Source: Cytophagaceae bacterium SCN 52-12
Lineage (GTDB): Bacteria; Bacteroidota; Bacteroidia; Cytophagales; Spirosomataceae
Length of the DNA stretch: 39,033 nt
NCBI GenBank assembly: GCA_001724175.1
Contig: MEDT01000076.1
Location: 8,619 to 47,651 of the forward strand
Direction: 5' to 3'
Shown here piece after piece: positions 15,474 to 37,853 of this stretch. The position numbers were made by a program, and so were the translations under genes. The notes below the pieces were generated by a model. It saw only the letters and a list, made by a program, of their open reading frames with translations, was not told where the DNA came from and did not search any database. The stretch's first letter is position 1; each line of letters opens with the position of its first letter.

Positions 15474-15478
15474 GGATG

Positions 15479-16601: not shown

Positions 16602-16618
16602 TGTCGCAGGTTTCGCAG

Positions 16619-17554: not shown

Positions 17555-17592
17555 GTGGGTCAAATTTTTAATGTGTCGTTAGGGTTCCCCTT

Positions 17593-18897: not shown

Positions 18898-18947
18898 GAT
18901 CTGTTCGGAAGAAAAGTTATATTAAAGTTGCGGGCCTGTTTTTTAAA

Positions 18948-18993
18948 GTCGCCAAAGGCGACAGAATAGCACTTCGGGACTGAAAGTCCCGAA
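18948..18993. repeat. tandem hairpins between MFS transporter and aminotransferase genes
   Basis: Two perfect inverted repeats lie 10 bp apart: GTCGCC-AAA-GGCGAC (18948-18962) and TTCGGGACT-GAA-AGTCCCGAA (18973-18993). On the transcribed strand the second-reached stem is followed by TTT and then A-rich sequence, so termination would be weak. They may be a REP-like mobile intergenic element, or an intra-operon attenuator that lowers expression of the last four genes. Confidence 0.6.
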
Positions 18994-19002
18994 GAACGGG
19001 AA

Positions 19003-21219: not shown

Positions 21220-21230
21220 CAGGTTAAGAA

Positions 21231-21798: not shown

Positions 21799-23385
21799 CT
21801 AGTTTTTATCCCACCAGAGCGGAGTGCTGGCTTTGTCCGGACCGCCAAGCAAACCGACAGCAGCGTCTACCGCGGCTTTGTTCGTAGCTTTCTCAGCATC
21901 CGTAAAAGGAAATCTCCGGATGAACTCGGTAGTCGGAATGTCGTTGTTAACAGAATTAACGACATTGTAAAGTTTGGGGAACCTTGTCCTGCGGAACTCG
22001 GCCCATCCTTCACAGCCGTCGGGGAAGACCGCCAGCCATTTTTGAGTTCCGATCTGCTCGCGTTGTTTGGCCTCTGAAGCGGCCCATTTTACGGGAATAT
22101 CGCTGACCGCAGCTGAGTTCATAGCGTCGCCCGGCGCAACCGGCGGAGTAGTACCTTGGATGTAAGTGTCTACGGCAGCCCCGGAAAAGCCCCACGTCGC
22201 CATCGATTCGCGGATACCTTTTTCATATAACTCTTGTGCGCTTCCTCCCATGTTCCATCCGTTTAAAGCTCCTTCCGCGCGGAGGAAGTAGGCTTCAGCA
22301 GCATGCAGGATATCGGCCGGGACGGCCAGCAGGTTTTCCCAGCCGCTTCCGCTTCCTGTATTGCGGATCCAGCGGGAGCCTACGTTAGAGTTATAATCAT
22401 TGGTATTGAGATCCTGCGTTAACTGGGCAGGACTCAGACCATTTCTCAATCCTTCGTAGGTACCGGTCTTAAATGCAGGCTGAAAGAAAACTGTCATACG
22501 CGGATCGTTATACCCTTTCAGTATGGATTCCATCGTTGCGCTCATGCGAAACTCCTGCCATCCTGAAATACGTGAAATGCCGTTTCCATCCCCGCTGGTT
22601 ACTGCGGTGCGCACCATCATGGCGTCGTCGGCAGCGCTCAGCATCACACCAGATGCCACAGCGGCTTCTGCTTCTGTCTTGGCACGTGTCGGATCTACCT
22701 TTGAAATTCTCAACGCGAAGCGTAGCCTAAGCGTATTGGCAAACTTGATCCATTTGTTAAGATCACCTTTAAACATGATATCTGAGGAGCCGAAAGGCTT
22801 GAGCGTTGCATCACCTGCCTTGGTTTTCAAAAGGGTAACTGCGGCGTCCAGTTTTTTGAAGAAATCATCATAGATGACATCCTGCGCGTCGTATTTTACT
22901 GAAGTAGCGGGTATACCTGCATCGAAATAGGGGATCGGCCCGTAGTAGTCGGTTACCCGGCTAAAGGAAAATACCCACCAGATGTTGGCCATCGCATTTT
23001 CAGGTGTTGTTGAATCATAGTTGTCGAGGATGATTCTTAGCTGGGGAACCACCTGGGTGTAGATCGGGTTCCAGTGAGAGCCTATCCAACCCATATTGGT
23101 GTGATACCGATCTGACTGGAAGTTGGGAGTGGTAGTTGCGTAAAACTGGCACCAAAGATCGGCAAACAGGTTGGTTGCGGTCTGGTACGACGGGTGGTAA
23201 GAACCTTGGGACAAAGCCTGGGAGAACATTTTCGGATATTCATTGGGCCCCAGGGTCATGATCTGGGTCTTACTGATATTCAATTCTTCGAAATCCCCCG
23301 TACACCCTCCGGCAACCCACAGTGAAAGCGAAATGGAAGCCGCTCCAAGCGCTTTTTTATATATATTTTTATTAAAAAATGTCAT
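21799..23385 (-). CDS. SusD/RagB-family outer-membrane lipoprotein (second pair)
   Basis: This is the 528-aa lipoprotein partner of the SusC encoded 30 bp upstream. The signal peptide ends in AGGC, placing the lipidated cysteine at residue 28, followed by TGDFEELN. The C-terminus STPLWWDKN matches the other SusD in this window, so the two belong to the same SusD-like 2 subfamily although the bodies differ. As part of the pair centred in the catabolic locus, it probably captures the compound processed by operons A and B, which is inferred from gene order. Confidence 0.93.
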   Translation of the reverse strand: MTFFNKNIYKKALGAASISLSLWVAGGCTGDFEELNISKTQIMTLGPNEYPKMFSQALSQGSYHPSYQTATNLFADLWCQFYATTTPNFQSDRYHTNMGWIGSHWNPIYTQVVPQLRIILDNYDSTTPENAMANIWWVFSFSRVTDYYGPIPYFDAGIPATSVKYDAQDVIYDDFFKKLDAAVTLLKTKAGDATLKPFGSSDIMFKGDLNKWIKFANTLRLRFALRISKVDPTRAKTEAEAAVASGVMLSAADDAMMVRTAVTSGDGNGISRISGWQEFRMSATMESILKGYNDPRMTVFFQPAFKTGTYEGLRNGLSPAQLTQDLNTNDYNSNVGSRWIRNTGSGSGWENLLAVPADILHAAEAYFLRAEGALNGWNMGGSAQELYEKGIRESMATWGFSGAAVDTYIQGTTPPVAPGDAMNSAAVSDIPVKWAASEAKQREQIGTQKWLAVFPDGCEGWAEFRRTRFPKLYNVVNSVNNDIPTTEFIRRFPFTDAEKATNKAAVDAAVGLLGGPDKASTPLWWDKN

Positions 23386-23415
23386 CTTTCCAATATTTTA
23401 AAGTCTCTTGAATGA

Positions 23416-26400
23416 TCAGAAGCTCAATTGTACGTTCAGGCCGATTGTCCTGGTAGTCGGCAAGTTTCCATAGTCGATACCCTGGTAGTTGCCGGCCCCG
23501 AGATTCATATCCGGATCGAAGTTCATTTTACGTTTCTTTAAACCTGGAATGTCCATCGTGGCATATCCCCTGTAAAGGAAGAAGAGATTACGGCCGGTCA
23601 GAGAAACTTTTGCATTTGTAAAGAAACGTTGGTTAGCCAGTGGAATGTTGTATCCGATAGAGAGCTCACGCAGGCGGAAGTTGGTAGTATTGTAGGTAAA
23701 GAACTCTCCCCATGAATAACGTCCCTGGGAGACAGTCTGCCAGAATTGCTCTGCATTTACTTCTATATCATTCGGCTTTCCTTCGTCTTTCCCTACTGCA
23801 GGCAGCAGCCAGCCTCCTTCACGATAGGCCAGGGTGTAATCTGCATTTCCGTCATATGCCAGGTTTGCTTCAGTTCCCGACACCATCTGGCCTCCTACGC
23901 GTCCATCGATCAGGAAGTTCAGGACGAAGTTTTTGTATGCAAAGGAGTTATTCCAGCCAAGCGTAAACTTGGGGTTGAAATTTCCCAGGTATCCGTTAGC
24001 AGCAGAGATCGGCAGTCCTGTGGTATCGTTTACCATGTATTGCCCATTGGCATTTTTAGCCCAGGTATAGCCGTAAAGATCGCCGTATGAGCCTCCCTCA
24101 TGAGCAGCTACACCAGCAGTACGCACCACTGTGGCAATCCAGGCCTGTTTGATGTTTTCGTGCAGCGTTATAATTTTATTGACGTTGCGCGCAAAGTTGA
24201 TATTCGTATTCCAGGTGAAGGCTCCTTCTTTCAAAGGTTGTCCGGACAGCATAATTTCCACGCCTCTGTTGCGGATCTTACCGGCATTGATAAGCTGGGC
24301 CGTAAACCCTGTACCGGTTGGAAGCTGAAGGGTTAGGATCTGGTTTACCGTAAGGCTGTTGTAGTAGGTTGCATCTATACCCAGCCGGCCTCTGAAGAAT
24401 CTCAAATCAACCCCGAATTCTGTAGAAGACGATATTTCAGGCTTGAGGTTTGCATTCGGAAGCGTAGTATTCCTTGTAATGTACCCGCCTGAACCTCCCG
24501 GGTTGTAAACGTAATAGGGTAGCAACTGGTAGGGGCTGGTGTCATTTCCTACCTGCGCAAACGAGCCTCTTATCTTAGCAAAGCTGATCCATTGCGGAAG
24601 CTGTACGGCATCTGACAACAATAAGTTTGCGCCAAATGAAGAATAGAGATACGAGTGAGGAGCGGGAAGGGTAGAAGACCAGTCATTGCGCACAGAACCA
24701 TCGACAGTCAGGTAATCCCTGAATGAAAGCGATGCGGTTCCAAAAACGTATTGGAGCTCTTTTTGCGAAAACGCCGCTATCCTGCTCAGGTTACTGGCGA
24801 AGTTCAGGTCGAACTTGTTGGTTACCGACAAACCTGTTGCCAATCCGCCCGTTTCCTGGTATTTGTTAAAAGTCTGACCGGCGCCAAAGTTGTAGGTAAG
24901 TCCGAAGTCTTTGCCCAGGCTATTACTTCCGGAAAGGATCAGGTCCATATTTCTCTCAATGGTAGAAGCGACATAGTTCTGATACGTACCCCCGGCAGCA
25001 GTTACGTGGACAACGGTACGGTCAGAAAATCCGCGATCCATTAGATCATCGAATGAATCGAAGCTGATGCGTCCCTGTACATTCAGCCAATCGGTAATCT
25101 TGTATTTGGCTGACCCCAGGATCGTAGAACGGTTCCGTGTCTCGTTGTCGAAGGTACGGTTGATGGTCCAGTACGGGTTCATGTAAATACCTGATGAAGT
25201 CCAGTACGTAGGGAAACCTTCCTCATCCTCGAATCTTTTATACTGGTTCAGATCGACGTTTCTCGGGGTTTTTAACAGGTTCATGACTACACCGTTGTTT
25301 TCGCCCGAGTAAGGTCTGTTTTTCAGCTTTTGGTTTACATAGGTGATCTTACCGTCTACTGAAAGGCGTTTGGTAACATCGGCATTGATCCTCAGGTTAA
25401 CCGTATGACGCTGCAGATCGTTGGTAGGAACGATACCCTGGTTCCCGTTGTGCGTATAGGAAAGGTAGGTTCTTATATTTTCCGTCCCGCCAGAAACTCC
25501 GATAGAGTTGTTGGTAGAAATCCCCGTTCTGTAAAAGTCCCTGATGTTGTTGGGATAAGTAGTTTGCTTACCACCCCAACTGCTTTGTCCGTTCGTGGTT
25601 GACTTACCCTCGGCGCCTTGCCCGTATTCGTTCTGGAATGCGGGAAGCAGGAGAGGTGATTCCATTACCACGCCGGAGTTGATGCTCGTCGAAATTTTTC
25701 CGGAAGATCCCTTTTTCGTCGTAATCATGATCACGCCGTTCGCAGCCCGGCTACCGTAGAGTGCCGCCGCCGCAGCACCTTTAAGAACTGTCATCGACTC
25801 GATATCGTCAGGGTTGATATTGGCTGCTCCGTCACTCCTGTTGTAGCCTCCGAAGTCGGAACCCACCTGGCCTCTTATCGTGTTATCGATGGGTACTCCG
25901 TCAACTACGAAAAGGGCATTGTTTCCGCCGGTAATAGACCGGTTTCCCCGGAGTACCACCCTGGTAGGCGAACCGGGTCCTGAAGAACCTTGCGTAACCA
26001 CAAGGCCGGCAACCTTACCGGAAAGGGTATTGACGAAGTTCGCATCTCTCACTTCATTGAGTTGCTTACCTGACAACTGCTGGGCAGAATACGTCAGCGT
26101 TTTGGCTTCCCTTTCGATACCCAGCGCGGTAACCACGATCTCAGACAGCGCGGTCACGTCTTCAGCCATCGTAACATTTACGGTGCTTCTGCCTCCTACT
26201 GCTATATCCTGGGAAATGAACCCGATAAAAGAAAAAGTCAGCGTGGCGTTTCCGGATGGAGCATTCAGGCTATACTCACCATTTACATCGGAGGAGGTTC
26301 CCGTAGTAGTATTCTTCACTACCACGTTTACCCCGGGTAGGGGATTGCCGTTGCTGTCTGACACTTTTCCCGATACCTGGAATGCCTGAGCCGAAACACC

Positions 26401-26469
26401 GAGAGAGAAGAGCAGCATGCTCAACACAGCAGCAGCAGCCCGGTAAACCGGATGCTTTTTTTGTTTCAT
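23416..26469 (-). CDS. SusC/RagA-family TonB-linked outer-membrane transporter (second pair)
   Basis: This is an outer-membrane TonB-dependent channel of about 1017 aa. The preferred start is the ATG at 26469, which yields the signal peptide MKQKKHPVYRAAAAVLSML with cleavage near GVSAQ; an ATG at 26532 would add 21 residues with no signal-like character. It has a carboxypeptidase-regulatory-like domain (PLPGVNVVVKNTTTG), the linker EIVVTALGIEREAKTLTYS, a plug with the VDGVPI segment, a barrel, and a terminal VQLSF. It forms a pair with the SusD 30 bp downstream. A candidate -7 element and an inverted repeat lie upstream. Confidence 0.94.
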   Translation of the reverse strand: MKQKKHPVYRAAAAVLSMLLFSLGVSAQAFQVSGKVSDSNGNPLPGVNVVVKNTTTGTSSDVNGEYSLNAPSGNATLTFSFIGFISQDIAVGGRSTVNVTMAEDVTALSEIVVTALGIEREAKTLTYSAQQLSGKQLNEVRDANFVNTLSGKVAGLVVTQGSSGPGSPTRVVLRGNRSITGGNNALFVVDGVPIDNTIRGQVGSDFGGYNRSDGAANINPDDIESMTVLKGAAAAALYGSRAANGVIMITTKKGSSGKISTSINSGVVMESPLLLPAFQNEYGQGAEGKSTTNGQSSWGGKQTTYPNNIRDFYRTGISTNNSIGVSGGTENIRTYLSYTHNGNQGIVPTNDLQRHTVNLRINADVTKRLSVDGKITYVNQKLKNRPYSGENNGVVMNLLKTPRNVDLNQYKRFEDEEGFPTYWTSSGIYMNPYWTINRTFDNETRNRSTILGSAKYKITDWLNVQGRISFDSFDDLMDRGFSDRTVVHVTAAGGTYQNYVASTIERNMDLILSGSNSLGKDFGLTYNFGAGQTFNKYQETGGLATGLSVTNKFDLNFASNLSRIAAFSQKELQYVFGTASLSFRDYLTVDGSVRNDWSSTLPAPHSYLYSSFGANLLLSDAVQLPQWISFAKIRGSFAQVGNDTSPYQLLPYYVYNPGGSGGYITRNTTLPNANLKPEISSSTEFGVDLRFFRGRLGIDATYYNSLTVNQILTLQLPTGTGFTAQLINAGKIRNRGVEIMLSGQPLKEGAFTWNTNINFARNVNKIITLHENIKQAWIATVVRTAGVAAHEGGSYGDLYGYTWAKNANGQYMVNDTTGLPISAANGYLGNFNPKFTLGWNNSFAYKNFVLNFLIDGRVGGQMVSGTEANLAYDGNADYTLAYREGGWLLPAVGKDEGKPNDIEVNAEQFWQTVSQGRYSWGEFFTYNTTNFRLRELSIGYNIPLANQRFFTNAKVSLTGRNLFFLYRGYATMDIPGLKKRKMNFDPDMNLGAGNYQGIDYGNLPTTRTIGLNVQLSF

Positions 26470-26579
26470 CCTCCGAAACGGGTATTTCAGGGAGGATTCT
26501 GTAGGTAGTAGAAGTTTTGTAATTACCGACATGCTTTTGTCATTTTAGTTGATGGTTGGTTTTATAAGATTGGTTAATA

Positions 26580-26811: not shown

Positions 26812-28557
26812 TCAAGGCCTTCGCGGCGCATCGCCGGGATTTTCCCTTACTCTTTTCACCTCTCTGGGGCTGATCGGATAGGCATTATTTCCGAATCCTG
26901 ACCGTATATACGTTAGTATCTGTGCGACTTGCTCGTCAGTAAGGAAGTCATGAGGGGGCATTACGCCGTTATAGGGTTTTCCTTTTACCGTAATGGGCCC
27001 CGAAAGTCCCTTCAGCACCAGGTCGATCAGCTTAAAAGGGTTTCCCGTCACCCATTCGGAAGCGACCAGCGTCGGATAACGATTCCCATCACCGTTCCCG
27101 TCGCTGAGATGACAGGTAGCGCAGTACAGATTATAAAGCTGCTCACCGGCTGCTATGTTGCCTTTTTGAAGATTGTCTTCTTTTTCGTCCGGGGTTTTGA
27201 TATTGGTCCGCTGTTTCCTGGCCTCCATTCCTGCAAGCTGGGTTTTCCCGAACCCGCTTTTCTTTCCTTTATACATAATCCGCCAGATCTTCCCGTTTAC
27301 GCTCTCGCTGACATACAGCGAGCCGTCGGGCCCCATGGCCAGTCCTACCGGGCGGGCATGCGCGTCGCTGGTGTTGGGGATGGTGTCGATCCCGGCAAAC
27401 CCGTCGGCAAATACTTCCCAGGGACCGTCCGCCCTGCCGTCTTTCATCGGGACGAACGCCACGAAATAGCCTGCCTGCGGATAAGGGGCGCGGATGGTCG
27501 AGCCATGGAAAGCAATGAATGCGCCGTGACGGTATCGCTCGGGAAATTGATCGCCTTTATAGAAAAACACGTTGTTGGGCGCAAAGTGACCCGGGAAGCC
27601 AGTGACCGGCAGCCCCACCGTGTCGGCTCCTCCCGTCCTGGTCTTATCCCCGCCATACTCGGGGTTCAGAAGCTTTTGTCCCTTCATCTGGTCGTAGTAG
27701 TAATAGGGCCATCCCCCGTTGAAACCACGGGGAACCCTGAAGAATTCTTCAGAAGGCAGCAGCGCGCTCTCCCAGGTCGAATAAAGCTCCGGCCAGACGC
27801 GCGAAAAATTATCGCGTCCGTGCTGGGCGGCGTACAGGTTGTTATCCAGCGGATCCCAGTCCATCCCTACAATGCTTCTGATCCCGGTCGCATATTTCTC
27901 GCCGTCTGCCTGCACCTGGTTGAGCTTATCGGCGTCAAACTTCCATATGCCGCCAAACCATTCGAGCTCATCGCAGGGAGATTTGCCTTTTCCTCCCGGT
28001 TTCCTGTTTTCTTCCTGGCACACATCGCCCGGCGCGCCGAACGAAACATAGAGGTTGCCTTCCTTGTCGAAGGCGATTGATTTGGCAGAATGCTCGACCC
28101 TTCTCCCGTTGAGGATAATCGTATCACGAACGACAACTTCGGTTTTTGCTGCGGGTACAAGCTCTCCGTCGCTCAGTTTGGTGCGGTACACGGCTTCCGG
28201 CGTGGAAAAGTAAAGGTAGCCGTTGTAGATCTTCATAGCCGTGCCGTAATTGTGGGAGTCGGTATAGTCGCCGAAATACCTGATGATATCGGCTTTCCCG
28301 TCGCTGTTGGTATCCCTCAGGGCTACGCTCCCTCCTTCCGGGGTGATCCCCCGCAATTTCATGTAAATGTCGCCGTTGGAATTGACGTCGAGATGCCGGC
28401 CCCTGCCCGTGCTGTCTGCCACAACAAGCGCTTCAAACCCGCCGGGCAGAAACAGGCCGCCATTATCCGCGTCTCCGTCAGGAAGCCCTGGCCCCGCCGG
28501 GCCGCAGCAAAAAAGCAGGCTGGTAAGTGTGATTGTGACGCATATCTGCGGAAGCAT
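26812..28557 (-). CDS. sorbosone/glucose dehydrogenase-type propeller fused to cytochrome c
   Basis: This is probably a periplasm-facing oxidoreductase that passes electrons from a sugar-like alcohol or aldehyde to its own haem. The six-bladed PQQ-type propeller (about residues 40-440 of the longest frame) carries FHG, DAHARPVGLAMGPDGSLYVSE and FNGGWPYYYY elements seen in sorbosone dehydrogenases. A C-terminal cytochrome c domain has the haem motif CATCH (487-491) and the likely axial methionine in GVMPPHDF (541). The N-terminus is hydrophobic and ends in FCCG, suggesting lipidation or Sec export. The ATG at 28557 gives a neater signal than the one at 28581. It is the last gene of operon B. 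Substrate and PQQ use are unproven. Confidence 0.85.
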   Translation of the reverse strand: MLPQICVTITLTSLLFCCGPAGPGLPDGDADNGGLFLPGGFEALVVADSTGRGRHLDVNSNGDIYMKLRGITPEGGSVALRDTNSDGKADIIRYFGDYTDSHNYGTAMKIYNGYLYFSTPEAVYRTKLSDGELVPAAKTEVVVRDTIILNGRRVEHSAKSIAFDKEGNLYVSFGAPGDVCQEENRKPGGKGKSPCDELEWFGGIWKFDADKLNQVQADGEKYATGIRSIVGMDWDPLDNNLYAAQHGRDNFSRVWPELYSTWESALLPSEEFFRVPRGFNGGWPYYYYDQMKGQKLLNPEYGGDKTRTGGADTVGLPVTGFPGHFAPNNVFFYKGDQFPERYRHGAFIAFHGSTIRAPYPQAGYFVAFVPMKDGRADGPWEVFADGFAGIDTIPNTSDAHARPVGLAMGPDGSLYVSESVNGKIWRIMYKGKKSGFGKTQLAGMEARKQRTNIKTPDEKEDNLQKGNIAAGEQLYNLYCATCHLSDGNGDGNRYPTLVASEWVTGNPFKLIDLVLKGLSGPITVKGKPYNGVMPPHDFLTDEQVAQILTYIRSGFGNNAYPISPREVKRVRENPGDAPRRP

Positions 28558-28620
28558 GAAATCAGAACGGTACGACAACATGTATAGAGCGTTTAAAGAA
28601 CCGGGAAAACTGAACTATAA

Positions 28621-29871
28621 TTATTGAGGCGACGGGATAGAGATAGCATTGAGATCATATACGATCGTACCGTCTTTGACGGTAAGCTCGCATTCCAGCC
28701 TCTGGTTTCCCTGCTGCTTGTACCGGGCGACGTCAAAAAAGCCGAATCTGCCTTTTTGAAGGTTCAGCACCGCGATATCGGCTACTGCTCCTACAGACAG
28801 GTGCCCCAGTTCCTTCCGGTTAATGACCTCGGCAGGCCGCCAGGTACTGGCTTTGATCACTTCATTCAGCGGCATACCCAGCGCCATGAATTTCGACATC
28901 ACATTCAGCTGGTCCTTCATCCCGGCATTCATGCTGCCTGTATGAAGGTCTGTGCTGATCACATCCGGGAAAAGGCCTGCCTTGATCGCAGGAATAGCCT
29001 GGGAATAACGAAAGCTTCCTCCCCCGTGGCCGACATCGTAGATAATACCTTTTTTGCGCCCCTCCATCACGAAGGGCTTCAGCACTTTCCGGGCGGTATC
29101 GACTATAGACTCTTTGGTATCGAGCAGCTCGCCGTAGACATGAGTGAAAATATCACCGGGGCGCATCTTTTCCAGGAAAAGCGTTTTGAGCGACAGCCTG
29201 GGCGTACAGCCGCCGAAGTCTACCATTACAGGCAGGTTGCTGAGCTTTCCGGCCTCTACCGCCCTTTCCACAGCAAGGAAGCTGGGCTGATGATAGTGAG
29301 CCACTTTGACGCCTACAATGTAATCTGAATATTTTTTTGCGGTATCGGCAGCCATTTTGGGATCCATGTATTTAGCGTCCTGCTGGTATTCGGAGTATTC
29401 GCTGCCTTTCATACCCTCGTAGCCGACATTGAGAAAAGCAAGTACCCTGGTCCTGGAACGATCTGCTATATTCTTTTTAAAGACTGCAAAATCTTTTGCG
29501 CCCGAGCTGCCGGCGTCTACGACGGTCGTCACTCCCACCCGGAATGTAAAGCCGTCGGCAGGGAGAGACCCGAAACCGTAGCTAAGGTCTCCATCCGAAA
29601 CTGTGCCGGCAAATACGTGGGCATGCATGTCTATAATGCCCGGCGTAACCAGCAGCCCGGTTGCATCGACCAGCTGCTTTGCCGTCGCAGGAGCGATGTT
29701 GGCGGCTACGGCGGCGATACGCCCGTTTGCCACCGCTACGTCCATTTTTTTATCGATTTTATTTTTCGGATCGATAACGCGGCCGTTTTTGATCAGGAGA
29801 TCATACTGCTGCGCAGACAATGACAGGCATGACAAGGAAAAGAATAAAAGGCAGGCGAAACGTAATTTCAT
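28621..29871 (-). CDS. exported amidohydrolase/deacetylase-family metallohydrolase (COG3964 type)
   Basis: This 416-aa amidohydrolase-superfamily protein has a Sec signal (residues 1-20, cleavage near LSAQ). Metal-site residues visible are H83 and H85 (DMHAHVF), K189 as the probable carboxylated lysine (VGVKVAHYH), H244 (FTHVY), H282 and D308 (ISTDLHT). At the strand-5 position where most members have histidine, this one reads VMVDFGG (D218). COG3964 proteins were long misannotated as dihydroorotases; characterised members hydrolyse acyl esters, and they often sit beside SelA-like PLP enzymes, as here (36 bp upstream). A deacylase acting in the periplasm is the best guess. Confidence 0.85.
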   Translation of the reverse strand: MKLRFACLLFFSLSCLSLSAQQYDLLIKNGRVIDPKNKIDKKMDVAVANGRIAAVAANIAPATAKQLVDATGLLVTPGIIDMHAHVFAGTVSDGDLSYGFGSLPADGFTFRVGVTTVVDAGSSGAKDFAVFKKNIADRSRTRVLAFLNVGYEGMKGSEYSEYQQDAKYMDPKMAADTAKKYSDYIVGVKVAHYHQPSFLAVERAVEAGKLSNLPVMVDFGGCTPRLSLKTLFLEKMRPGDIFTHVYGELLDTKESIVDTARKVLKPFVMEGRKKGIIYDVGHGGGSFRYSQAIPAIKAGLFPDVISTDLHTGSMNAGMKDQLNVMSKFMALGMPLNEVIKASTWRPAEVINRKELGHLSVGAVADIAVLNLQKGRFGFFDVARYKQQGNQRLECELTVKDGTIVYDLNAISIPSPQ

Positions 29872-29907
29872 ATAGGTTTAAAACCGAAAAAGGCATTGAA
29901 GGCGGAA

Positions 29908-31107
29908 TTATACTGATGCCCTTGCGAGCTCTTCCCGGATCCGGCCCGCCACAATCTTTTCCTGGCCGGGCTGGAGCATGAACACCGTGATCCGTATGCT
30001 GTCAGGCTCTTCCCAGGCAATGGTCTCGATAGAAGGAGTACCCTGCCTCAGCTTTTCTCCCATTTCCTCACGCGTCAGCTTAACGGCCGAAGGGTCCCAT
30101 CCTATTTTCAAAGATGGCGTATGGTTGGCGACAGGCGGAAGGATGTCTTCGGTATAGACGCCTTTCAGGCCTCCGAGCTGATTTTTGATGTGCGCGATGC
30201 GGGCCTCCCACATTTTCCAGTCTTTCGCATGGTCATGTTTTACATAGCGCTCAAGCGCAGCATACATGCCTATGATCTCTTCTTTGTTCACCTTATGCCC
30301 TCTTCCTATTCCTGATCGCGGCGGCGCGCTGAGCCTGGCAGCGGCGATCAGGTCTTTTTTACCCATCAATATACCGGCGCTTTGCGGCCCGAGGAGCGCT
30401 TTTCCCCCGGAAATGCAGACCAGGTCGAAGCCCATTTGATTGAATTTCCAGAGATTTTCGACCGGCGGTACATCGGCTGCGATATCAATCATAGTCGGGA
30501 TCCCGTGTTTTTTCCCCAGCGCTACCCATTCTTCATCCTTGATCTGTCCGACGGGCCCTTCCCGGTTCAGGAACCATAGCATAGCCGTTTTTTCGCTGAT
30601 GGCCCGGGCAAGCTCCTCTTTCGTCTCTACCAGCACAAACTTTATTCCGGTATTTGCCAGGGCCAGGTGATAGCCGTTGGCGTGCGATTTCTGGAGGATG
30701 ACCTCCGATTTCATCCCGGCTGCTTCAGGAAACGGCAGCGCAGCCACTTTTTTGCCATCCATACCGGTGAGCACACCGGCCATTCCCAGCACGAGGGCCG
30801 ACCAGCACCCGGCGGTAACCATTGCCGCTTCGGCTTTACACAGCTCCGCGATCTTTTCGCCCACCTTGTCCTGAACGTCGTCGAGCATGGCATACTTCTG
30901 TGCCGAGCTCTGAATGGCAGCCATGACTTCGGGCGGCATGAGCGAGGCCGTCATGGAGGTATAATTTCCTGCAGCATTGATAAACGTACGAAGGCCGAGC
31001 TCGCTGAAATAGTCCCTCGCGGGAGGCGCCTGGTGCGCTTCAGCTACCGCGCCGGCGCCGAATGCGGGCAACGCGGCTACTCCTTTTAGAATATCTCTTC
31101 TTTTCAT
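29908..31107 (-). CDS. Tat-exported SelA/DgaE-like PLP-dependent lyase
   Basis: This 399-aa fold-type I PLP enzyme is of the SelA-like group that includes D-glucosaminate-6-phosphate ammonia-lyase (DgaE) and is often misannotated as selenocysteine synthase. The Schiff-base lysine is K236 (ISGGKALLGPQ), the ring-binding aspartate is D208 (MIDIAAD), and the GIGRGHKV loop is kept. The N-terminus MKRRDILKGVAAL followed by an alanine-rich stretch is a twin-arginine signal, implying that it is folded with cofactor and then exported. It lies between a Tat-exported unknown and the COG3964 amidohydrolase. Ammonia elimination from an amino acid or amino sugar acid is plausible. True SelA is excluded by size, export and context. 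Confidence 0.85.
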   Translation of the reverse strand: MKRRDILKGVAALPAFGAGAVAEAHQAPPARDYFSELGLRTFINAAGNYTSMTASLMPPEVMAAIQSSAQKYAMLDDVQDKVGEKIAELCKAEAAMVTAGCWSALVLGMAGVLTGMDGKKVAALPFPEAAGMKSEVILQKSHANGYHLALANTGIKFVLVETKEELARAISEKTAMLWFLNREGPVGQIKDEEWVALGKKHGIPTMIDIAADVPPVENLWKFNQMGFDLVCISGGKALLGPQSAGILMGKKDLIAAARLSAPPRSGIGRGHKVNKEEIIGMYAALERYVKHDHAKDWKMWEARIAHIKNQLGGLKGVYTEDILPPVANHTPSLKIGWDPSAVKLTREEMGEKLRQGTPSIETIAWEEPDSIRITVFMLQPGQEKIVAGRIREELARASV

Positions 31108-31113
31108 CAGAAT

Positions 31114-31134
31114 AAAAGGTTTAAGCCAATAGCT
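31114..31134. repeat. degenerate 7-bp tandem repeats upstream of the SelA/DgaE-like gene
   Basis: Three units in register read AAAAGGT, TTAAGCC and AATAGCT on the plus strand. They fill most of the 25-bp gap, starting 7 bp from the downstream ATG and overlapping the upstream stop codon. The array is short, and significance comes from its likeness to the arrays at 15479 and 32497. Confidence 0.5.
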
Positions 31135-32488
31135 ATTTCTTCTTAAAGCTGTCGGGAATAATAAATTCGTATCCTTTCGGCGGCCATGGGCCGATGCTCT
31201 GGCCGGTGGGCCTCGGGTTTGAAGGTAAAATAGGCTCTATTCCTTCCACATTGTATTTTACATTCAGAAAAGGAGTTTTAATCTCCCTGTGATTGTCCAG
31301 GATCGACCGGATGCCCATGTCGATCATACCGCTGGTCAGCAATGTACGCTCTACAGGTCCCTGCGGCTTACCCGTTACCATGAATTTCTGGATATTCAAT
31401 GTAAGATAGCTAAAATGAGAGTAGCTCATGCTATGGTCGAGCACAAACTCTGTGGACACGGTCTTGCCGTCGGCATTTGCGGCATAGGCCCATCCCTGGT
31501 TAACGTATTCGTCAAGCATCAATATCGCGCCTTTCGTCCCGTCGTTGTATTTGATAACCAGCGCTCTCGGATCTTTTACGAGGTCTCTCATGTTGCCCGA
31601 AGCCTTGTCCCTGACCCGGTTGCAGGCCGCTTCGACCAGGGTCCCGGATATCTTCCCGGAATCGATCGCTTTCCATACTTCGTCGCCTCCTATGCCCTGT
31701 ATGCTGGCTACGCCCGTCTCGCCGCCTTTTCTGCGCTCCACCATGCACTGAAGAATTTCCAGGACGTGAAACCCGTAAGCATCCAGGGAGGCATAGCCGA
31801 TCGCAACCGCCTCTTTTAATTTGACGCCTATCGGGTGTACCAGATGGGGGTCACGCCAGCAATAGGGAAGAGAAGAGCCGGCCATCATCGGTACGTTCAG
31901 CTCTTTGGCCCGGTCGTAGATCCATTTACTGTCGAGCCAGCTGTAGGAAAGATGCTTGTCGGAAAACAGCGGCACCGACCTGCCGGACGCGTCGAAAACC
32001 CTGAAAATTTGCTCGAGGTAGTTCATCCTCGGGTACATTTTCATACCAAACCGGTTTTTGGGATATTCTCCGTGCTCTCCTATATAGATCACGCCGTCGA
32101 CCGCGAGCTTGTCGCCGCCCAGCGTGAGCGCCTCCGCTATGGTAGGGTAGAGGGTGGCGTTGTTCATCTTCGCAATGCGTACCCCGGTGTCGTTGTCTCC
32201 TATCTGGTCGATCCATACGGATACGATCTCTACTTCGGGTTCTACCATGCCGTCGTCGGTGGGTATACCGGCAAAGAGTTTGGTGCCGATAACGTCAGCA
32301 TGGGCGCTGTTCCTGTATATATTGGCGATAAACGCAATTTTCTTTTTCCCGTTTTTTTTCCACTCCCGGATCGGGGCAGGGGAAGAGGCGGGATCTGCCG
32401 AAAGATATGTAAGCGGGAGGAAGCCCAGCCCTGCGGTGATACCGGCAGCCTGCTTCAGGAAATTTCTTCTATGATCGTTGGGTTTCAT
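31133..32488 (-). CDS. Tat-exported protein of unknown function, weakly Gfo/Idh/MocA-like
   Basis: The function is not recognised. The 451-aa protein begins with a clear twin-arginine signal (HRRNFLKQAAG, then a hydrophobic run to about residue 30). After a lysine-rich linker comes KKIAFIANIYRNSAHAD, a strand-turn-helix that could be a Rossmann-type start but lacks a canonical GxGxxG. Notable segments are VIYIGEHGEYP, FSDKHLSYSW, AGSSLPYCWRDP and GWAYAANADGKT. Export by Tat suggests that it binds a cofactor before transport. It lies between the GGT-like gene and the SelA/DgaE-like gene and is probably an oxidoreductase or isomerase of the same periplasmic pathway, by context only. Confidence 0.75.
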   Translation of the reverse strand: MKPNDHRRNFLKQAAGITAGLGFLPLTYLSADPASSPAPIREWKKNGKKKIAFIANIYRNSAHADVIGTKLFAGIPTDDGMVEPEVEIVSVWIDQIGDNDTGVRIAKMNNATLYPTIAEALTLGGDKLAVDGVIYIGEHGEYPKNRFGMKMYPRMNYLEQIFRVFDASGRSVPLFSDKHLSYSWLDSKWIYDRAKELNVPMMAGSSLPYCWRDPHLVHPIGVKLKEAVAIGYASLDAYGFHVLEILQCMVERRKGGETGVASIQGIGGDEVWKAIDSGKISGTLVEAACNRVRDKASGNMRDLVKDPRALVIKYNDGTKGAILMLDEYVNQGWAYAANADGKTVSTEFVLDHSMSYSHFSYLTLNIQKFMVTGKPQGPVERTLLTSGMIDMGIRSILDNHREIKTPFLNVKYNVEGIEPILPSNPRPTGQSIGPWPPKGYEFIIPDSFKKK

Positions 32489-32496
32489 CTGTTATG

Positions 32497-32524
32497 AAAA
32501 GGTTTTAGCTGTTAGGTATTAGGT
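32497..32524. repeat. degenerate 7-bp tandem repeats upstream of the Tat-exported unknown gene
   Basis: Four units in exact register read AAAAGGT, TTTAGCT, GTTAGGT and ATTAGGT on the plus strand, starting 9 bp from the downstream ATG within the 78-bp gap after the GGT-like gene. Two units (GTTAGGT, ATTAGST) recur in the array at 15479-15520. Confidence 0.65.
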
Positions 32525-32566
32525 CCCTGAGCTCGTCGGAGGGTTGTTCATGCCGGGGTTGCCGGT

Positions 32567-34339
32567 TTACCAGCCGATCGCATAGCCGTTTCTCCGGGGG
32601 TCTGCGCCTCCCATGATCCATCCCGAGCCGTAGTCTATAACGATGCCCTGCGCGCCGCCGACGGTCATGGTCCAGTCGCCCAGGCTTGTGTCCAGGCTGT
32701 AGCCCATTTCCCTGAGCTTCTGGAGCGTTTCTTTCGGGATACGGGTTTCGATAAACAGCTCTTTGGCCGGAACGCTGCCCATTTCGTCTTTCCACCGGAA
32801 CCGCGGCGCGCTGATGGCATCCTGGATGTTCATCCCAAAGTCGATCACGTTCATCGCTACCTGCGGTACGGACTGCAATATGCCGAAGCTGCCCGGCGAG
32901 CCTACTACAAGGTGAGGCTTGCCGTCTTTATGGAACTGCATCATTCCTCCGATGCACCAGGAGACGCCCTTGCCGGGCTGGAAGCCGTTTGCCGCTTTCG
33001 GGTTAACGGTCATCCATTCGAGGGCGTTGTTAAATGCGACGCCCGTTTTCCCGGCCACATAGCCCGATCCGAAGCCGCCTCCCAGCGTCTGGGTGATCAC
33101 GACGACGTTGCCCCACTGGTCGACAGCCGACAGGCTTGTCGTGGCGTAGCGATACCTGCCGTCGTCGCCGGCTTCAGGCGCTAAGGGAAACACAAAAGTT
33201 TGCTTTTTCCGGTTGGCGAGCCGCTCTTTGACTTTCTGCGCCACTTTTTCCCGCTGTTTGGCTATATATTCTTCCGATAGCAGCTGCTTTACCGGTACCT
33301 CCACGAAGGCGGGATCGCCGATGTACTTATCGCTGTCGATGCGGCTCAGGTTGATCGCTTCGAAAAGATGGGCAAGGTATTCGACGCTGTTGTGGCCCAT
33401 TTTCTTCACGTCGAATCCTTCCATGATCTTGAGGGTCTCAAGCTGCTGTAGCCCCATTCCCGGCGGCGGGTTGTTATAAACGGTATACCCGTGGTACTGC
33501 ATGGAAAGAGGCTCGGTCCATTGCACTTTGCCCGGTACAGAGGCAAGATCTTCGAGCGATACGAAGCCGCCGTCTTTCTTAAACGCAGCTGCGATTTCCC
33601 GGGCGATGTCACCTTTGTAGAAGACATCGGCGCCTTCGGCGGCTATTCGCCGCATGGTCTGCGCAAGCGGCTTGTTGCTGAAAACGTCGCCTATTTTGTA
33701 AGGAGATTTGTCTTTTTTCAGGAAAATGGCGGCAGCTTCCGGGTGCGGAGCTACCCTCTGCACGATACCGGCCCACATAGACTGGTCATATTCGGTTACG
33801 GGCACGCCTTCCTCGAGATACTGAATGGCGCTTTCGAAGACCTTGCTGAGGGGCATGGTACCGTAGTCCTTCAGCGCCCGGTCCCAGCCCGCCAGGTTAC
33901 CGGGCACCGCCACTGTCCTGGGCCCTATTCCCTCCATTCTTCCGCCGTGCCCGGCCCCGTCGTCGAACCTGGTGATGTCTTTTACTTTTTCAGGGTCGAA
34001 GTTTTGGGGAGCCCAGCCTCCGAAAACGAGAGAACGGGTCCGTTTTTCTTTGGCAGAATAGAAAAGCATATAGCCTACGCCTCCCGTGCCAGACATAAAC
34101 GGCTCGACGGCGTTGAGCGAGGCGGCTGCGGCTACTATGGCGTCGATGGCGTTTCCACCTTCCGCCAGGATTTTCTGGCCGGCCAGTGAGGCCAGTGGAT
34201 GGGCGGTCGCCACCATGCCCTTCTTCCCTACTGCGGCAGGCCTGAGATTTTCTTTGGCCGCCTGCGAATAGGCGCCTGCGGCCAGGCAACAGGTTAAGAT
34301 GATTGCCAGCAGCGCTGTTTTATTTTTTGCTTTGTTCAT
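32567..34339 (-). CDS. gamma-glutamyltransferase-family Ntn hydrolase with altered substrate pocket
   Basis: This is a 590-aa exported (Sec signal, cleavage near AYSQA) member of the GGT family, which self-cleaves to form two subunits with an N-terminal threonine nucleophile. The processing site is T400 in ATTSLSAVDQWGN, where classic GGTs have TTH-x-S. The FREMAP-type segment holding the arginine that grips the glutamate carboxylate reads FGGWAP here (106-111), and the usual SSM pocket motif reads SWC (460-462). The fold is therefore kept but gamma-glutamyl recognition is doubtful, and it may be an acylase or amidase. Its start overlaps the ridA stop by 1 bp, so the two are translationally coupled. 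Confidence 0.88.
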   Translation of the reverse strand: MNKAKNKTALLAIILTCCLAAGAYSQAAKENLRPAAVGKKGMVATAHPLASLAGQKILAEGGNAIDAIVAAAASLNAVEPFMSGTGGVGYMLFYSAKEKRTRSLVFGGWAPQNFDPEKVKDITRFDDGAGHGGRMEGIGPRTVAVPGNLAGWDRALKDYGTMPLSKVFESAIQYLEEGVPVTEYDQSMWAGIVQRVAPHPEAAAIFLKKDKSPYKIGDVFSNKPLAQTMRRIAAEGADVFYKGDIAREIAAAFKKDGGFVSLEDLASVPGKVQWTEPLSMQYHGYTVYNNPPPGMGLQQLETLKIMEGFDVKKMGHNSVEYLAHLFEAINLSRIDSDKYIGDPAFVEVPVKQLLSEEYIAKQREKVAQKVKERLANRKKQTFVFPLAPEAGDDGRYRYATTSLSAVDQWGNVVVITQTLGGGFGSGYVAGKTGVAFNNALEWMTVNPKAANGFQPGKGVSWCIGGMMQFHKDGKPHLVVGSPGSFGILQSVPQVAMNVIDFGMNIQDAISAPRFRWKDEMGSVPAKELFIETRIPKETLQKLREMGYSLDTSLGDWTMTVGGAQGIVIDYGSGWIMGGADPRRNGYAIGW

Positions 34340-34878
34340 TACTTCAACTCTACAATCATTTCTATTTCTACAGGAATATTCATAGGGAGCGAGCCGACGC
34401 CTACGGCAGATCTGGCATGCTTTCCGTTATCGCCGAATACATCGACCATCAGGTCAGAAAACCCGTTGATGACCTGCGGATGCTGGTCGAACGTAGGGAT
34501 GGCATTGACCATTCCCAATACCTTTACAAAACGCTTGACTTTATTAAGATCACCTATTTCGGACTTCAGGGCGCCCAGCAGGGAGATTCCCGTGAGTCTT
34601 GCCGCCTCTTTTGCCTGGTTAAGGTCGAGGTCGGCTCCTACCTTGCCTTTCATATATTCGCCGTTTTCCTGGACGGGCCCGTGACCTGATACGAAGACCA
34701 GCTTACCTACCGTAACGGCCGTAACGAAATTGGCAATCGGCTTTCCCGGAGGCTTCAGCGTGATACCCAGCTCTCTGAGCCGTTTTTCGGGGTCAGTATT
34801 TTTTTGGGCGGCGAGCGGAGACACCGACAGCTGGATCGCCAGGAAAACAACGGTGTAAAAGCTAAGAAGTGATTTCAT
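34339..34878 (-). CDS. exported RidA-family protein
   Basis: This 179-aa RidA/YjgF-family protein carries an N-terminal Sec signal (hydrophobic VVFLAIQLSV, cleavage near PLAAQ), which is unusual because RidA is normally cytoplasmic. The family core is intact, with VFVSGHGPV, the arginine in HARSAVGVGSLP and the closing PVEIEMIVELK. The extra N-terminal length relative to a 125-aa RidA is the signal plus a short linker. It is co-translated with the GGT-like gene and lies in the same transcript as an exported PLP enzyme, so hydrolysis of imines formed in the periplasm is the obvious hypothesis. Confidence 0.88.
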   Translation of the reverse strand: MKSLLSFYTVVFLAIQLSVSPLAAQKNTDPEKRLRELGITLKPPGKPIANFVTAVTVGKLVFVSGHGPVQENGEYMKGKVGADLDLNQAKEAARLTGISLLGALKSEIGDLNKVKRFVKVLGMVNAIPTFDQHPQVINGFSDLMVDVFGDNGKHARSAVGVGSLPMNIPVEIEMIVELK

Positions 34879-34907
34879 AGGTATAAAAATTAGTTATAAT
34901 CCGGTAT

Positions 34908-36008
34908 CTACCGGCTTTCCGTTTTTTCGTCCTGCGGCGCATTGTTGCTCCAGAATGAAGCGAGCACCGATGCGGTGAAGCCCATAAGAGGACCGCAAAT
35001 GGCAGAAGCGAGCCCGACGGTGGCTATTTTGCCTATCACTTTGGCAATGCCCGACACCATGCCGGCATTCTGCATGCCTGTCGCAATAGCGATCGTACGG
35101 CAATCTCTTTCCTGCAGCTTAAACAATTTTCCCGCCCAGTAGCCGAAGAAATAGCCCAGTACATTGTGCAGAAAAACAGCCATCAGCAACAAAAAGCCTA
35201 TGTTCAGAATGCTTTCTCTCCCGGCGGAAATGATAATTGCCACGATCAGCGCGATGCCGAACATAGAGACGTAAGGCATGATGTCCTGCAGCCATTTGGC
35301 TTTACCGCTGGTGAGCTTGTTAAAGATGAGCCCGGCCGCAATCGGGAGCAGTACGATCTTGACCATTCCCCACATCATGCCGAGCACGTCGATCTCTATA
35401 TAGCCGCCCGCGAAGAGCCTCATCAAGAGCGGGATAAGCACAGGGGCGATGAGGGTAGTGATCGACGTAACGGTAATAGCAAGGGCTACATTGGCTTTGG
35501 CCAGGTAGCTGAAAAGGCTGGCGGTGACGGAAGTCGGGGCGCAGCCAAGCAGGATGAGCCCGGCGGCGATCTCATCTTCGAACCCGATCAGCCGGGCCAG
35601 TATGAAACCTAAAACGGGCATGATGGTATACTGGGCGATGACCCCTATTATGACCGATTTAGGCGCCCTTGAAAGCTCTACGAAATCTTTGATGCCCATC
35701 GAGCAGCCGGTTCCGAACATGATGAGCTGGATCAGCGGCGTAATCAGGACGGCGGTTTCAAAGCCGTTCCACTCCAGGAAGAGCCAGGGATAGTAAAGCG
35801 CGGTGATGGTGACGCTTAGGATAAATACCGTGAAGGCAAGGCCTTTCAGAGCCGGGATCCCCCTGAACGATATCGAAAGGAAGATCATTCCCGCTACGAA
35901 AAACGGGCCTGCATCTGAAATCCCGCTGGTAACAGCCTTGTAGGCTGTTACCAGAAGAAACGTAATCGCCAGGTATAAAACTATGCGATAGGCGCGGGAT
36001 TGGTTCAA
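34908..36008 (-). CDS. bile acid:sodium symporter (BASS/SBF) family transporter
   Basis: This is an inner-membrane transporter of 366 aa with about 9-10 hydrophobic segments. Motifs such as PLIQLIMFGTGCSMGIKDF and GCAPTSVTASLFSYLAKAN (with a negatively charged or polar cation site) fit the SBF family, which imports organic anions with sodium. In this operon it may carry an acidic product into the cytoplasm. The start appears to be TTG at 36008: no in-frame ATG lies between it and a stop codon at 36060, which is also the stop of the upstream gene, and the first membrane segment begins soon after. A later ATG would remove that segment. Confidence 0.87.
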   Translation of the reverse strand: MNQSRAYRIVLYLAITFLLVTAYKAVTSGISDAGPFFVAGMIFLSISFRGIPALKGLAFTVFILSVTITALYYPWLFLEWNGFETAVLITPLIQLIMFGTGCSMGIKDFVELSRAPKSVIIGVIAQYTIMPVLGFILARLIGFEDEIAAGLILLGCAPTSVTASLFSYLAKANVALAITVTSITTLIAPVLIPLLMRLFAGGYIEIDVLGMMWGMVKIVLLPIAAGLIFNKLTSGKAKWLQDIMPYVSMFGIALIVAIIISAGRESILNIGFLLLMAVFLHNVLGYFFGYWAGKLFKLQERDCRTIAIATGMQNAGMVSGIAKVIGKIATVGLASAICGPLMGFTASVLASFWSNNAPQDEKTESR

Positions 36009-36059
36009 GGAGCGGGAATAGTTAAAAGGGTTTAGAAATAAATATCGTTGAATGCCTTG

Positions 36060-37016
36060 TCAGTGAGCAAATTGCTTCCACTCCCGGCCTGGCGTATCGG
36101 TTCTGAATTTTTCCACGTTCCCCTTGTCCTGGATGGTTACGTAGATGGTTTGACCATCGGGCCCGCCAAAAGCCAGGTTGCTGGGCATTTTGCCGTTCAT
36201 GATCACTTCCCTTACCAGGGTTCCGTCGGGGGCGACAATAGCGACGGTGCCTTTACCGTGCCGGGTGATGTAGAGATTGCCGTTTTGATCGCACCGCATC
36301 CCGTCCATTCCGAAATCGGGGAACTCGATCAGGAGCCTCTTGTTGCTGATGTTGCCTTCGGGAGAGAGGTCATATGCCCAAACCTTTCGCTGTACGCTTT
36401 CGTTGACATACAGGATGTCGTTGCCCGGGCTTACTTCAATCCCGTTGGTAGTGCCCATATTTTCTTCCAGCAATGTAACGGTGCCGTCGGTATCGATCCG
36501 CCAGATGTTGCCGGTTCCTTCTTTCCAGTTCGGATCGCTGGCATACAGCCTGTCGCGGTTGTCTATGGCTATGTCGTTCGGCTGGTTCATCCTGGCTTCA
36601 TGCGCATAGACCGAAATGGCTTTGGTCGCCATATCTACTTTTAGAATATTGTGCTGCGGATAATCGGCTATCAGCATTTCTCCCCTGCTGTTGAACCTGA
36701 TCCCGTTTCCTACGCTTCCTTCGGGCAGCTCTACGAAAATCCCGGCCTCTCCCGAATCGGTCACCATCCCGATGGTACCGGATTTTTCAAAATTGACGGC
36801 ATAAAGTATTCCTTTCGAATCCACGGCGGGGCCCTCTGCTCCCGATGTAAAGCTGTTGGTGTCGGTAACGACGGTTGCTGTAAACATTTCGGTTTCTGAT
36901 TGATTTTCTTTTCCGGAATTGGAAGAGCAGGATAATGTGCCCATGGCTGCCAGCGCCACAGCGGCGAAGGCAGAGGTTCTGATCGTTTTTTCTCCGGAGA
37001 GCAGGGATGCAGTCAT
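36060..37016 (-). CDS. SMP-30/gluconolactonase/LRE-family lipoprotein
   Basis: This is a six-bladed propeller of the SMP-30 family, whose known members open sugar lactones with a divalent metal. With the ATG at 37016 the product is about 318 aa and starts with a lipoprotein signal ending GTLSC, with the mature cysteine near residue 30. Metal-ligand regions are visible as EGPAVDSKG, TNGIEVSPGND and DGMRCDQNGN. A start at 37085 would overlap the preceding gene and bury the signal, so it is rejected. It begins 7 bp after the CBM9-like gene. Lactonase activity would pair naturally with the dehydrogenase-cytochrome fusion at the end of this operon. Confidence 0.85.
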   Translation of the reverse strand: MTASLLSGEKTIRTSAFAAVALAAMGTLSCSSNSGKENQSETEMFTATVVTDTNSFTSGAEGPAVDSKGILYAVNFEKSGTIGMVTDSGEAGIFVELPEGSVGNGIRFNSRGEMLIADYPQHNILKVDMATKAISVYAHEARMNQPNDIAIDNRDRLYASDPNWKEGTGNIWRIDTDGTVTLLEENMGTTNGIEVSPGNDILYVNESVQRKVWAYDLSPEGNISNKRLLIEFPDFGMDGMRCDQNGNLYITRHGKGTVAIVAPDGTLVREVIMNGKMPSNLAFGGPDGQTIYVTIQDKGNVEKFRTDTPGREWKQFAH

Positions 37017-37023
37017 TGATTTG

Positions 37024-37770
37024 TCATTTGAATTCCAGCGTTCCAAAAAACTGAGGTAAATGAAAGTTGGGTTTAGGAAAGTCAACAGGCGCCCATGTAA
37101 ACCAGTGCGGGTTGCTGGTCCTGCTGCCTGTTTTGTAAAAATTGGCGCGCCATCTGGCGCCGGGTTGAGGAATAGTCACATCTGAAAATTTTTCAAGCAT
37201 TGCGTACGGTACGCGGCACTCAATGGTCCACTCGGTCGGCCCCGGTATTTCCGGGTCTACTACCGAAGGCAGGGAATGCGCGATCTCGATTTTGCTTATG
37301 CTCAGGCTGTCCAGTTTCGTAAAATCCGTCCAGGGTTTGGTAACATAGAAGATAAGGGGAGTGCCCCCGGCATTGATCTCCAGGTTGAAGTAGTGCAGGG
37401 GCTGCTTCTCGTCCGGCGAAAAAAAGAATTCCACACAGGAATCGCCGGAGACATTTCCGTTGTATTCCGTTACGGTACTTTTAACGAAGCGGTCGGCTAC
37501 TTTAAAGATCAGGTAAAGATTGTCCCGGTCATAGGCGAGCTTTGCTTCCGTCACAGGCGTAAATCCGGGCAGCTTCCCCATGGGATTGGCCACACGGATC
37601 CCCGGAATTTTTTTCCATTCCTTCTTGTCCCAGCGCCCGTCTACGGGGATTGGCTTACCCGTACGATGCACCTGGTAGGAAGCCTGGCCCATAGCTGGCC
37701 TGAGGTATGCGGAGCATCCGAACAACAGTACGAAAAACAAACACCGGCTTTTCAAGAGGCATTTTGTCAT
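37024..37770 (-). CDS. exported CBM9-like (carbohydrate-binding family 9) protein
   Basis: This protein of about 248 aa has a signal peptide (hydrophobic LFFVLLFGCSAYL, cleavage near AMGQA) followed by a single CBM9-like beta-sandwich. The start IPVDGRWDKKEWKKI, the KLAYDRDNLYLIFKV strand, the SCVEFFFSPD segment and the late WRANFYKTG element are family hallmarks. It probably binds a sugar end or acts as an uncharacterised periplasmic or surface binding protein. The ATG at 37770 is chosen over a TTG at 37782. It is the first gene of operon B, with a candidate -7 element 84 bp upstream. Confidence 0.86.
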   Translation of the reverse strand: MTKCLLKSRCLFFVLLFGCSAYLRPAMGQASYQVHRTGKPIPVDGRWDKKEWKKIPGIRVANPMGKLPGFTPVTEAKLAYDRDNLYLIFKVADRFVKSTVTEYNGNVSGDSCVEFFFSPDEKQPLHYFNLEINAGGTPLIFYVTKPWTDFTKLDSLSISKIEIAHSLPSVVDPEIPGPTEWTIECRVPYAMLEKFSDVTIPQPGARWRANFYKTGSRTSNPHWFTWAPVDFPKPNFHLPQFFGTLEFK

Positions 37771-37853
37771 AGGGCAGCTCAATCGTCAGGCTGAATCTTC
37801 GGTTGCAGCGCTCTCAAGCTGCAAGGTAAATATTTTGCAGATGAGCGTCAAAG

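Follow-up and report, generated by a model that had tools for sequence, protein, structure and literature searches.

Large amounts of nitrogen are stored in the amino sugars of chitin, peptidoglycan and glycosaminoglycans. According to the usual description, these sugars are imported, phosphorylated and then deaminated in the cytoplasm. Unphosphorylated glucosaminate is the substrate of D-glucosaminate dehydratase (EC 4.3.1.9), a pyridoxal phosphate (PLP) enzyme described as cellular, which yields 2-keto-3-deoxygluconate and ammonia. A precedent for a PLP enzyme exported by the twin-arginine translocation (Tat) pathway and active in the periplasm is PvdN of Pseudomonas. It functions in siderophore maturation and not in catabolism, and we know of no RidA partner for it. 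Two described systems are close to the one reported here. In the cytoplasmic Ong pathway of oxidative chitin use in Pseudoalteromonas prydzensis, the N-acetyl aldonic acid GlcNAc1A, which results from oxidation by an extracellular lytic polysaccharide monooxygenase, is deacetylated by OngB, of the D-aminoacylase family, and deaminated by OngC, a fold-type III PLP enzyme, to 2-keto-3-deoxygluconate; the RidA-family protein OngD is essential (PMC9537276, PMC12017989). The other is DGL (PDB 7lc0), a cytoplasmic PLP enzyme of the SelA/DgaE type that acts on a phosphorylated substrate. The locus analysed here lies in a stretch of 39,033 nucleotides (the window) of the Bacteroidota genome of Cytophagaceae bacterium SCN 52-12 (5.12 Mb, 79% complete), which covers positions 8619–47651 of the 47,651-base contig MEDT01000076.1 (C76). 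On balance, the products of the locus probably break down an N-acylated 2-amino sugar, or the aldonic acid derived from it, by a pathway that runs outside the cytoplasm and is linked to respiration.

The operon is formed by the minus-strand genes between positions 37782 and 26812 and is followed downstream by a SusC/SusD outer-membrane uptake pair (21799..26532, minus strand; PF07715, PF12741). Since the right end of the window is the end of the contig, the 5′ side of the operon is cut off. An earlier sequence-only reading of this DNA had named a sugar dehydrogenase fused to cytochrome c, an SMP-30 lactonase-like lipoprotein, a deacetylase-family amidohydrolase, a DgaE-like lyase and an exported RidA. 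All of them are present on the minus strand where that reading had placed them, but its list omitted the CBM9-like, SBF, gamma-glutamyltransferase (GGT)-like and Gfo/Idh-fold genes, the SusCD pair and seven further genes downstream. The gaps from the SBF gene to the dehydrogenase gene measure 25–78 bp, with a one-base overlap between the RidA stop and the GGT start. The single transcript that had been asserted is likely, given these short gaps and the common orientation of all genes.

From gene content, export signals, intact catalytic motifs, a lost phosphate site and histidine in the lyase and the conservation of the set, all read directly from the sequences, we infer the substrates, order of steps, role of RidA and transporter substrate as follows. 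SusCD would carry the compound across the outer membrane. The lipoprotein-type dehydrogenase would oxidize C1 to give a lactone, passing electrons through its cytochrome c to the respiratory chain, and the SMP-30 protein would open the lactone. This would give an N-acyl-D-amino acid, which a COG3964 amidohydrolase would then deacylate. The DgaE-like PLP enzyme would eliminate water across C2/C3 and, devoid of the proton donor of DGL, would release an enamine. Exported RidA would help to turn this enamine into ammonia and a 2-keto-3-deoxy acid, and the keto acid would be imported by the SBF symporter.

The lyase (29908..31107, minus strand) is homologous to DGL over its full length (residues 33–392, E 7e-28) and has the same PLP lysine, K236, which is invariant in the alignment of 114 short exported relatives. 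The same beta-elimination of the C3 hydroxyl is predicted. Its profile scores are below the family cut-offs (TIGR01437, 153.9 bits for a cut-off of 385.3; NF047797, 132.5 for 600). Unlike DGL it has a predicted Tat signal: its amino terminus reads MKRRDILKG, an RR pair is found within the first 25 residues of 96 of 102 lyases, and TatC is encoded in the genome. In a model of substrate-bound DGL the phosphate lies close to Arg-301, Arg-332 and Arg-346, and the His-162/His-163 pair of this enzyme was described as strictly conserved (PMC9529869). The three arginine columns hold S, I and F in the window lyase, and the arginines are replaced across the 114 short exported lyases with the exception of an R at the Arg-332 column alone in three sequences. 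This loss supports an unphosphorylated amino-sugar acid as substrate. The loop that bears His-162/His-163 in DGL is shortened by two or three residues in the exported lyases. According to the alignments it corresponds in the window to NREGPVG (codons 181–187; 30547..30567, minus strand), without histidine; among the 114 sequences no histidine is common at the His-163 column and 11 have one near position 162. The phosphate arginines and the histidine are both retained in the Clostridioides difficile DgaE whose gene lies in a phosphotransferase system (PTS) operon. The window protein appears to be a distant relative of DGL that falls outside its family on three counts, and is a candidate dehydratase/ammonia-lyase of an unphosphorylated amino-sugar acid. 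An AlphaFold model of the lyase built with 11 sequences was of poor quality (pLDDT 56) and was discarded.

The RidA-family imine/enamine deaminase (34339..34878, minus strand) carries a signal peptide and matches PF14588 (57.6 bits, cut-off 35) and PF01042 (48.7 bits, cut-off 27.3). Arg-156, in a HARSAV motif at 154, corresponds to Arg-105 of Escherichia coli RidA, with which proteins of this family hold the carboxylate of the substrate. A hydrophobic amino terminus is found in all 36 RidA2 relatives, and an exported Rid adjoins most exported lyases. The H163A variant of DGL retains near-normal turnover and releases free enamine, seen at 293 nm; its authors suggested that His-163 serves to avoid free enamine and named RidA as a remover of such enamines (PMC9529869). 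The absence of His-163 from the exported lyases would explain their exported RidA partner, which may complete the lyase reaction by handling the released enamine. It also suggests a possible account of the unexplained need for OngD in the oxidative chitin pathway, namely a lyase that has no proton donor and releases enamine.

The predicted exported amidohydrolase (28621..29871, minus strand; Sec-type signal peptide) scores 430 bits with the COG3964 model NF006689 (cut-off 371). Its metal-site motifs are all intact (HAH 83–85, K of GVKV, H of THVYG, H of VGHGGG and D of STDLH) and align with those of Atu3266 (PDB 2ogj, E 4e-42), which with EF_0837 belongs to the same family. In Firmicutes, genes of this family occur together with those for DgaE and KDGP aldolase; the window protein differs from these relatives by its export signal. 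It is a putative N-deacylase. Acetyl-(R)-mandelate is a substrate of Atu3266, which also has weak activity on N-acetyl-D-serine. As this characterized member acts on alpha-acyl carboxylates, the order oxidation, lactone opening and deacylation is more likely than the deacylation-first order put forward in the sequence-only reading, which is not retained here.

The putative sugar dehydrogenase (26812..28581, minus strand) combines a predicted GSDH/AA12-like propeller (PF07995, 40 bits) with a cytochrome c (PF00034, 43 bits; haem motif CATCH 487–491). A profile match to the fungal quinoprotein 6h7t/6i1q (E 3e-5) extends over the greater part of the GSDH portion and aligns the presumed catalytic histidine, His-164, as well as Arg-235 and the FHGST motif. 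The SMP-30/gluconolactonase-like lipoprotein (36060..37016, minus strand, in an open reading frame (ORF) that opens at 37085, with the likely start ATG at 37016) scores 148 bits with PF08450, has the lipobox TLSC and finds the gluconolactonase structures 8djf and 7ris in the PDB; it is a putative sugar lactonase. The bile-acid/PanS-like SBF symporter (34908..36008, minus strand; PF01758, 127 bits) reaches 199 bits with the PanS model, below the cut-off of 400, and may import a keto acid or a sugar acid. The operon also codes for a predicted exported carbohydrate-binding protein of the CBM9 type (CBM9_2; 37024..37782, minus strand, start uncertain; PF16011, 117.7 bits) with a signal-peptide-like amino terminus.

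One genome from each of 84,980 species was scanned with the aligned exported lyases as query and 416 relatives were found; neighbourhoods within about 10 kb were counted for the best 79 of these, from 79 loci of Bacteroidota/Balneolota. The lyase gene has as neighbours genes for COG3964 (72 loci), the GSDH-cytochrome (47), CBM9-like protein (33), RidA of the RidA2 (33) or RidAx type (28), SBF (31), SusC (30) and SMP-30 (24). When the count is restricted to the same-strand run with gaps of up to 400 bp, which could be scored in 77 loci, COG3964 shares the run in 68, any Rid in 47 and any GSDH in 42. As a genome of 5.1 Mb has about 6 Rid genes, ~0.02 would be expected per 20 kb, so that the 47 runs with Rid reflect linkage beyond chance. 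Nearly all COG3964 and GSDH-cytochrome c relatives have a hydrophobic amino terminus. The gene order of the window is retained in Larkinella and Dyadobacter (loci L039, L040, L045 and L049), with an M81 peptidase gene inserted between SBF and RidA, and SusCD follows the operon in these genera as well. A Pgl-type lactonase replaces SMP-30 in L034, L112, L114 and Granulicella.

A second, longer exported DgaE-like paralogue (~535 residues, with an extra carboxyl-terminal domain) is often present in the clusters of the exported lyase (L036:8778-10436, L037:9362-10969, L038:9169-10848 and 14 of the loci counted above). Two or three lyase paralogues together with two COG3964 copies are found per operon in L053, L056, L063, L065, L071, L074 and L077, which suggests that these operons serve a group of similar amino sugars or one compound that bears at least two amines. 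A truncated lyase gene beside an intact copy (L033:8059-8739, genome G004) is apparently a decaying duplicate. The genome of the window itself has a second cassette copy, apparently split across the ends of contigs C110 and C74 (L027:1-1628, L127:1-2413), which codes for a lyase, a COG3964 protein, an exported RidA and an exported RraA-like protein.

The nature of the product is indicated by sister clusters. In Daejeonella and Chitinophagaceae, the lyase and COG3964 genes lie directly upstream of those for a DgoK-family kinase (PF05035, 173 bits), a KDPG aldolase (TIGR01182, 175 bits for a cut-off of 156) and a galactonate-type transporter of the major facilitator superfamily (MFS), which points to a 2-keto-3-deoxy-hexonate. 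GH20 or sulfatase genes are found near some Bacteroidota clusters. The strongest support for the route comes from lineages in which unrelated proteins would supply the same set of oxidation, opening, deacylation, deamination and hydrolysis functions. Plasmid pACIX902 of the acidobacterium Granulicella tundricola (L135:9107-17480) codes for RraA, an exported lyase without the phosphate arginines, an exported RidA, a second PLP enzyme, COG3964, the Pgl-type lactonase and a BBE-domain FAD oxidase, the latter two taking the places of SMP-30 and GSDH. Halorussus has a PIG-L deacetylase, lyase, glucose 1-dehydrogenase and Rid together, and in Halomontanus a D-aminoacylase, PIG-L, GH20 and heparinases are encoded beside a DgaE-like gene. 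These haloarchaeal loci probably represent a cytoplasmic archaeal route of amino-sugar oxidation. On two haloarchaeal plasmids (L131:5196-10735 and L134:5570-10660) the phosphate site of the DgaE-like proteins is lost or mostly lost. The C. difficile plasmid NZ_CP149720.1 (L133:5745-10903) has in one run PTS genes and genes for a MupG-family protein, COG3964, DgaE, KDGP aldolase and a PfkB kinase, a cytoplasmic phosphorylated counterpart that may be for a muropeptide sugar.

Several observations weigh against the proposed route. No PqqE was found over the cut-off in the genome, so that pyrroloquinoline quinone (PQQ), if used by the dehydrogenase, would have to be scavenged. The Rhizobium enzymes keep His-163 yet sit beside RidA, and the DgoK-type operons have neither the lyase histidine nor a RidA in the run; this weakens loss of His-163, taken alone, as a predictor of a RidA neighbour. 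The window has no 2-keto-3-deoxygluconate (KDG) kinase or aldolase gene, and no DgoK was detected in the 79%-complete genome. In favour of the route, the genome does encode a KDPG aldolase, which shares 61% identity with the one in the DgoK clusters. In a tree of 110 lyases the window sequence falls in a clade of 35 (SH-aLRT 96), mostly from GGT/M81/SBF contexts, which is separate from the DgoK-linked lyases, and the substrate of the window system may thus differ from theirs. The DgoK-linked operons are devoid of RidA and GSDH in the run, so that no single operon has every step. Nor does the simple route account for the GGT-like protein, the Gfo/Idh-fold protein or, further downstream, the aminotransferase and the dehydrogenases. 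The comparative evidence argues well for the class of chemistry anticipated by the sequence-only reading, an extracytoplasmic oxidative route for an amino-sugar acid with a PLP deaminase and RidA, but not for glucosamine as the compound used in the window.

The peptidase-like genes invite another explanation, in which beta-hydroxy-D-amino acids in N-acyl or peptidyl form are what the cluster breaks down. The GGT-like and M19 proteins and, in relatives, the M81 protein would be peptidases and COG3964 a D-aminoacylase, the lyase and RidA would deaminate products resembling D-serine or D-threonine, and GSDH and SMP-30 would serve another sugar moiety. The GGT-like gene within the operon, the M19 gene downstream and M81/MlrC in 14 related loci agree with it, as does the activity of the Ong deaminase on D-serine and D-threonine (PMC9537276). 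We consider it unlikely: it accounts neither for the sugar dehydrogenase and lactonase conserved beside the lyase, nor for DgoK and KDPG aldolase in the sister clusters, nor for the PTS, MupG and KDGP aldolase neighbours of the C. difficile DgaE/COG3964 pair. The same peptidase-like partners, together with the MupG-family gene that adjoins COG3964 and DgaE in C. difficile, could be taken to mean that the window subtype is directed at muramic-acid or muropeptide-like compounds, the GGT-like, M81 and M19 proteins trimming the peptide and the lyase eliminating, after C1 oxidation, the C3 substituent (D-lactate) rather than water. The cluster lacks genes for an amidase, a lysozyme or an etherase, and the sequence gives no direct sign of a lactyl group; this reading is very unlikely.

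Finally, this may be a polysaccharide-utilization locus without a single linear route, its enzymes being directed at various unrelated moieties and RidA being a general scavenger under enamine stress. Gene order and composition do differ among loci, and the Gfo/Idh-fold protein, CBM9 and others have no assigned step. Such a loose assembly is difficult to reconcile with the tight same-strand linkage of COG3964, Rid and GSDH to the lyase, and with the finding that Acidobacteriota and haloarchaea have this set of functions too, built from proteins that are in part unrelated; it is regarded as distinctly unlikely.

The extracytoplasmic amino-sugar route, which we prefer, would work like the Ong pathway without being a member of it. 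Both would combine deacetylation of an N-acetyl aldonic acid by a protein of the amidohydrolase superfamily, deamination of an unphosphorylated compound by a PLP enzyme and a RidA protein. The window differs by its export signals and by its use of COG3964 and a SelA/DgaE-type enzyme, and the GSDH-cytochrome and lactonase would supply the acid. As the Ong pathway already deaminates glucosaminate without phosphorylation and with RidA (PMC9537276), the novelty claimed for an unphosphorylated route in the sequence-only reading was overstated. What would be new is the location, the enzyme families and the coupling to respiration. The literature searched (on COG3964/Atu3266, exported RidA, galactosaminate, and MupG with DgaE) contained no description of such a route outside the cytoplasm with these enzymes; it was limited to open-licence papers, and the negative is thus weak evidence of absence. 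More tentatively, and with somewhat less than even confidence, we propose a widespread respiratory pathway of Bacteroidota and Acidobacteriota in which oxidative deacylation and deamination of amino sugars are completed outside the inner membrane by a lyase that has neither proton donor nor phosphate site and depends on exported RidA. Periplasmic oxidation and deamination would, if true, change where nitrogen and carbon are released and which community members take them up, and would give a catabolic role to a pair of exported PLP enzyme and exported RidA.

Two operon products are particular to the window subtype and may trim an extra amide or glycosidic group. The predicted exported Ntn hydrolase of the GGT fold (32567..34339, minus strand; PF01019, 411 bits) keeps the nucleophile T400 but reads VFGGWAP at 105–111 instead of DFREMAP. 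Since GG replaces the RE motif, whose arginine binds the gamma-glutamyl carboxylate, ordinary gamma-glutamyl transfer is unlikely and true gamma-glutamyl chemistry was rejected; the protein is probably an amidase of other specificity. The predicted Tat-exported Gfo/Idh/MocA-fold protein (31133..32488, minus strand) has no Pfam match. Its AlphaFold model (pLDDT 69, pTM 0.73) finds with Foldseek, as top matches, GenD2, inositol dehydrogenase, NAD-dependent glycosidases and GFOR (E down to 1e-14).

Downstream of SusCD, seven co-oriented genes (14115..21608, minus strand) probably complete the locus. They code for a cytoplasmic RidA, two proteins like 3-hydroxyacyl-CoA dehydrogenase, a NagP/GluP-type MFS transporter, a class III aminotransferase (GSAM/GntE-like), an M19 dipeptidase and a ceramidase-like hydrolase. 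Most of them recur next to the exported lyase in loci L046 and L051, with an additional DHDPS-family aldolase in L046, while CerA and AraC are found beside the lyase in L040. The cytoplasmic functions may mean that the compound carries a further amine or amide group. A guanitoxin-related role of the aminotransferase was not retained, as its score with the GntE model (390 bits) is below the cut-off of 525 and denotes a family-level resemblance only. At the contig end, the product of the ORF at 37956–38987 has no Pfam or NCBIfam match and by eye resembles a TIM-barrel glycosidase with a carboxyl-terminal beta domain. At the other end of the locus lies a gene for an AraC-type regulator (13212..14120, plus strand; PF12833, 75 bits), which also adjoins the cluster in L040 and L051.

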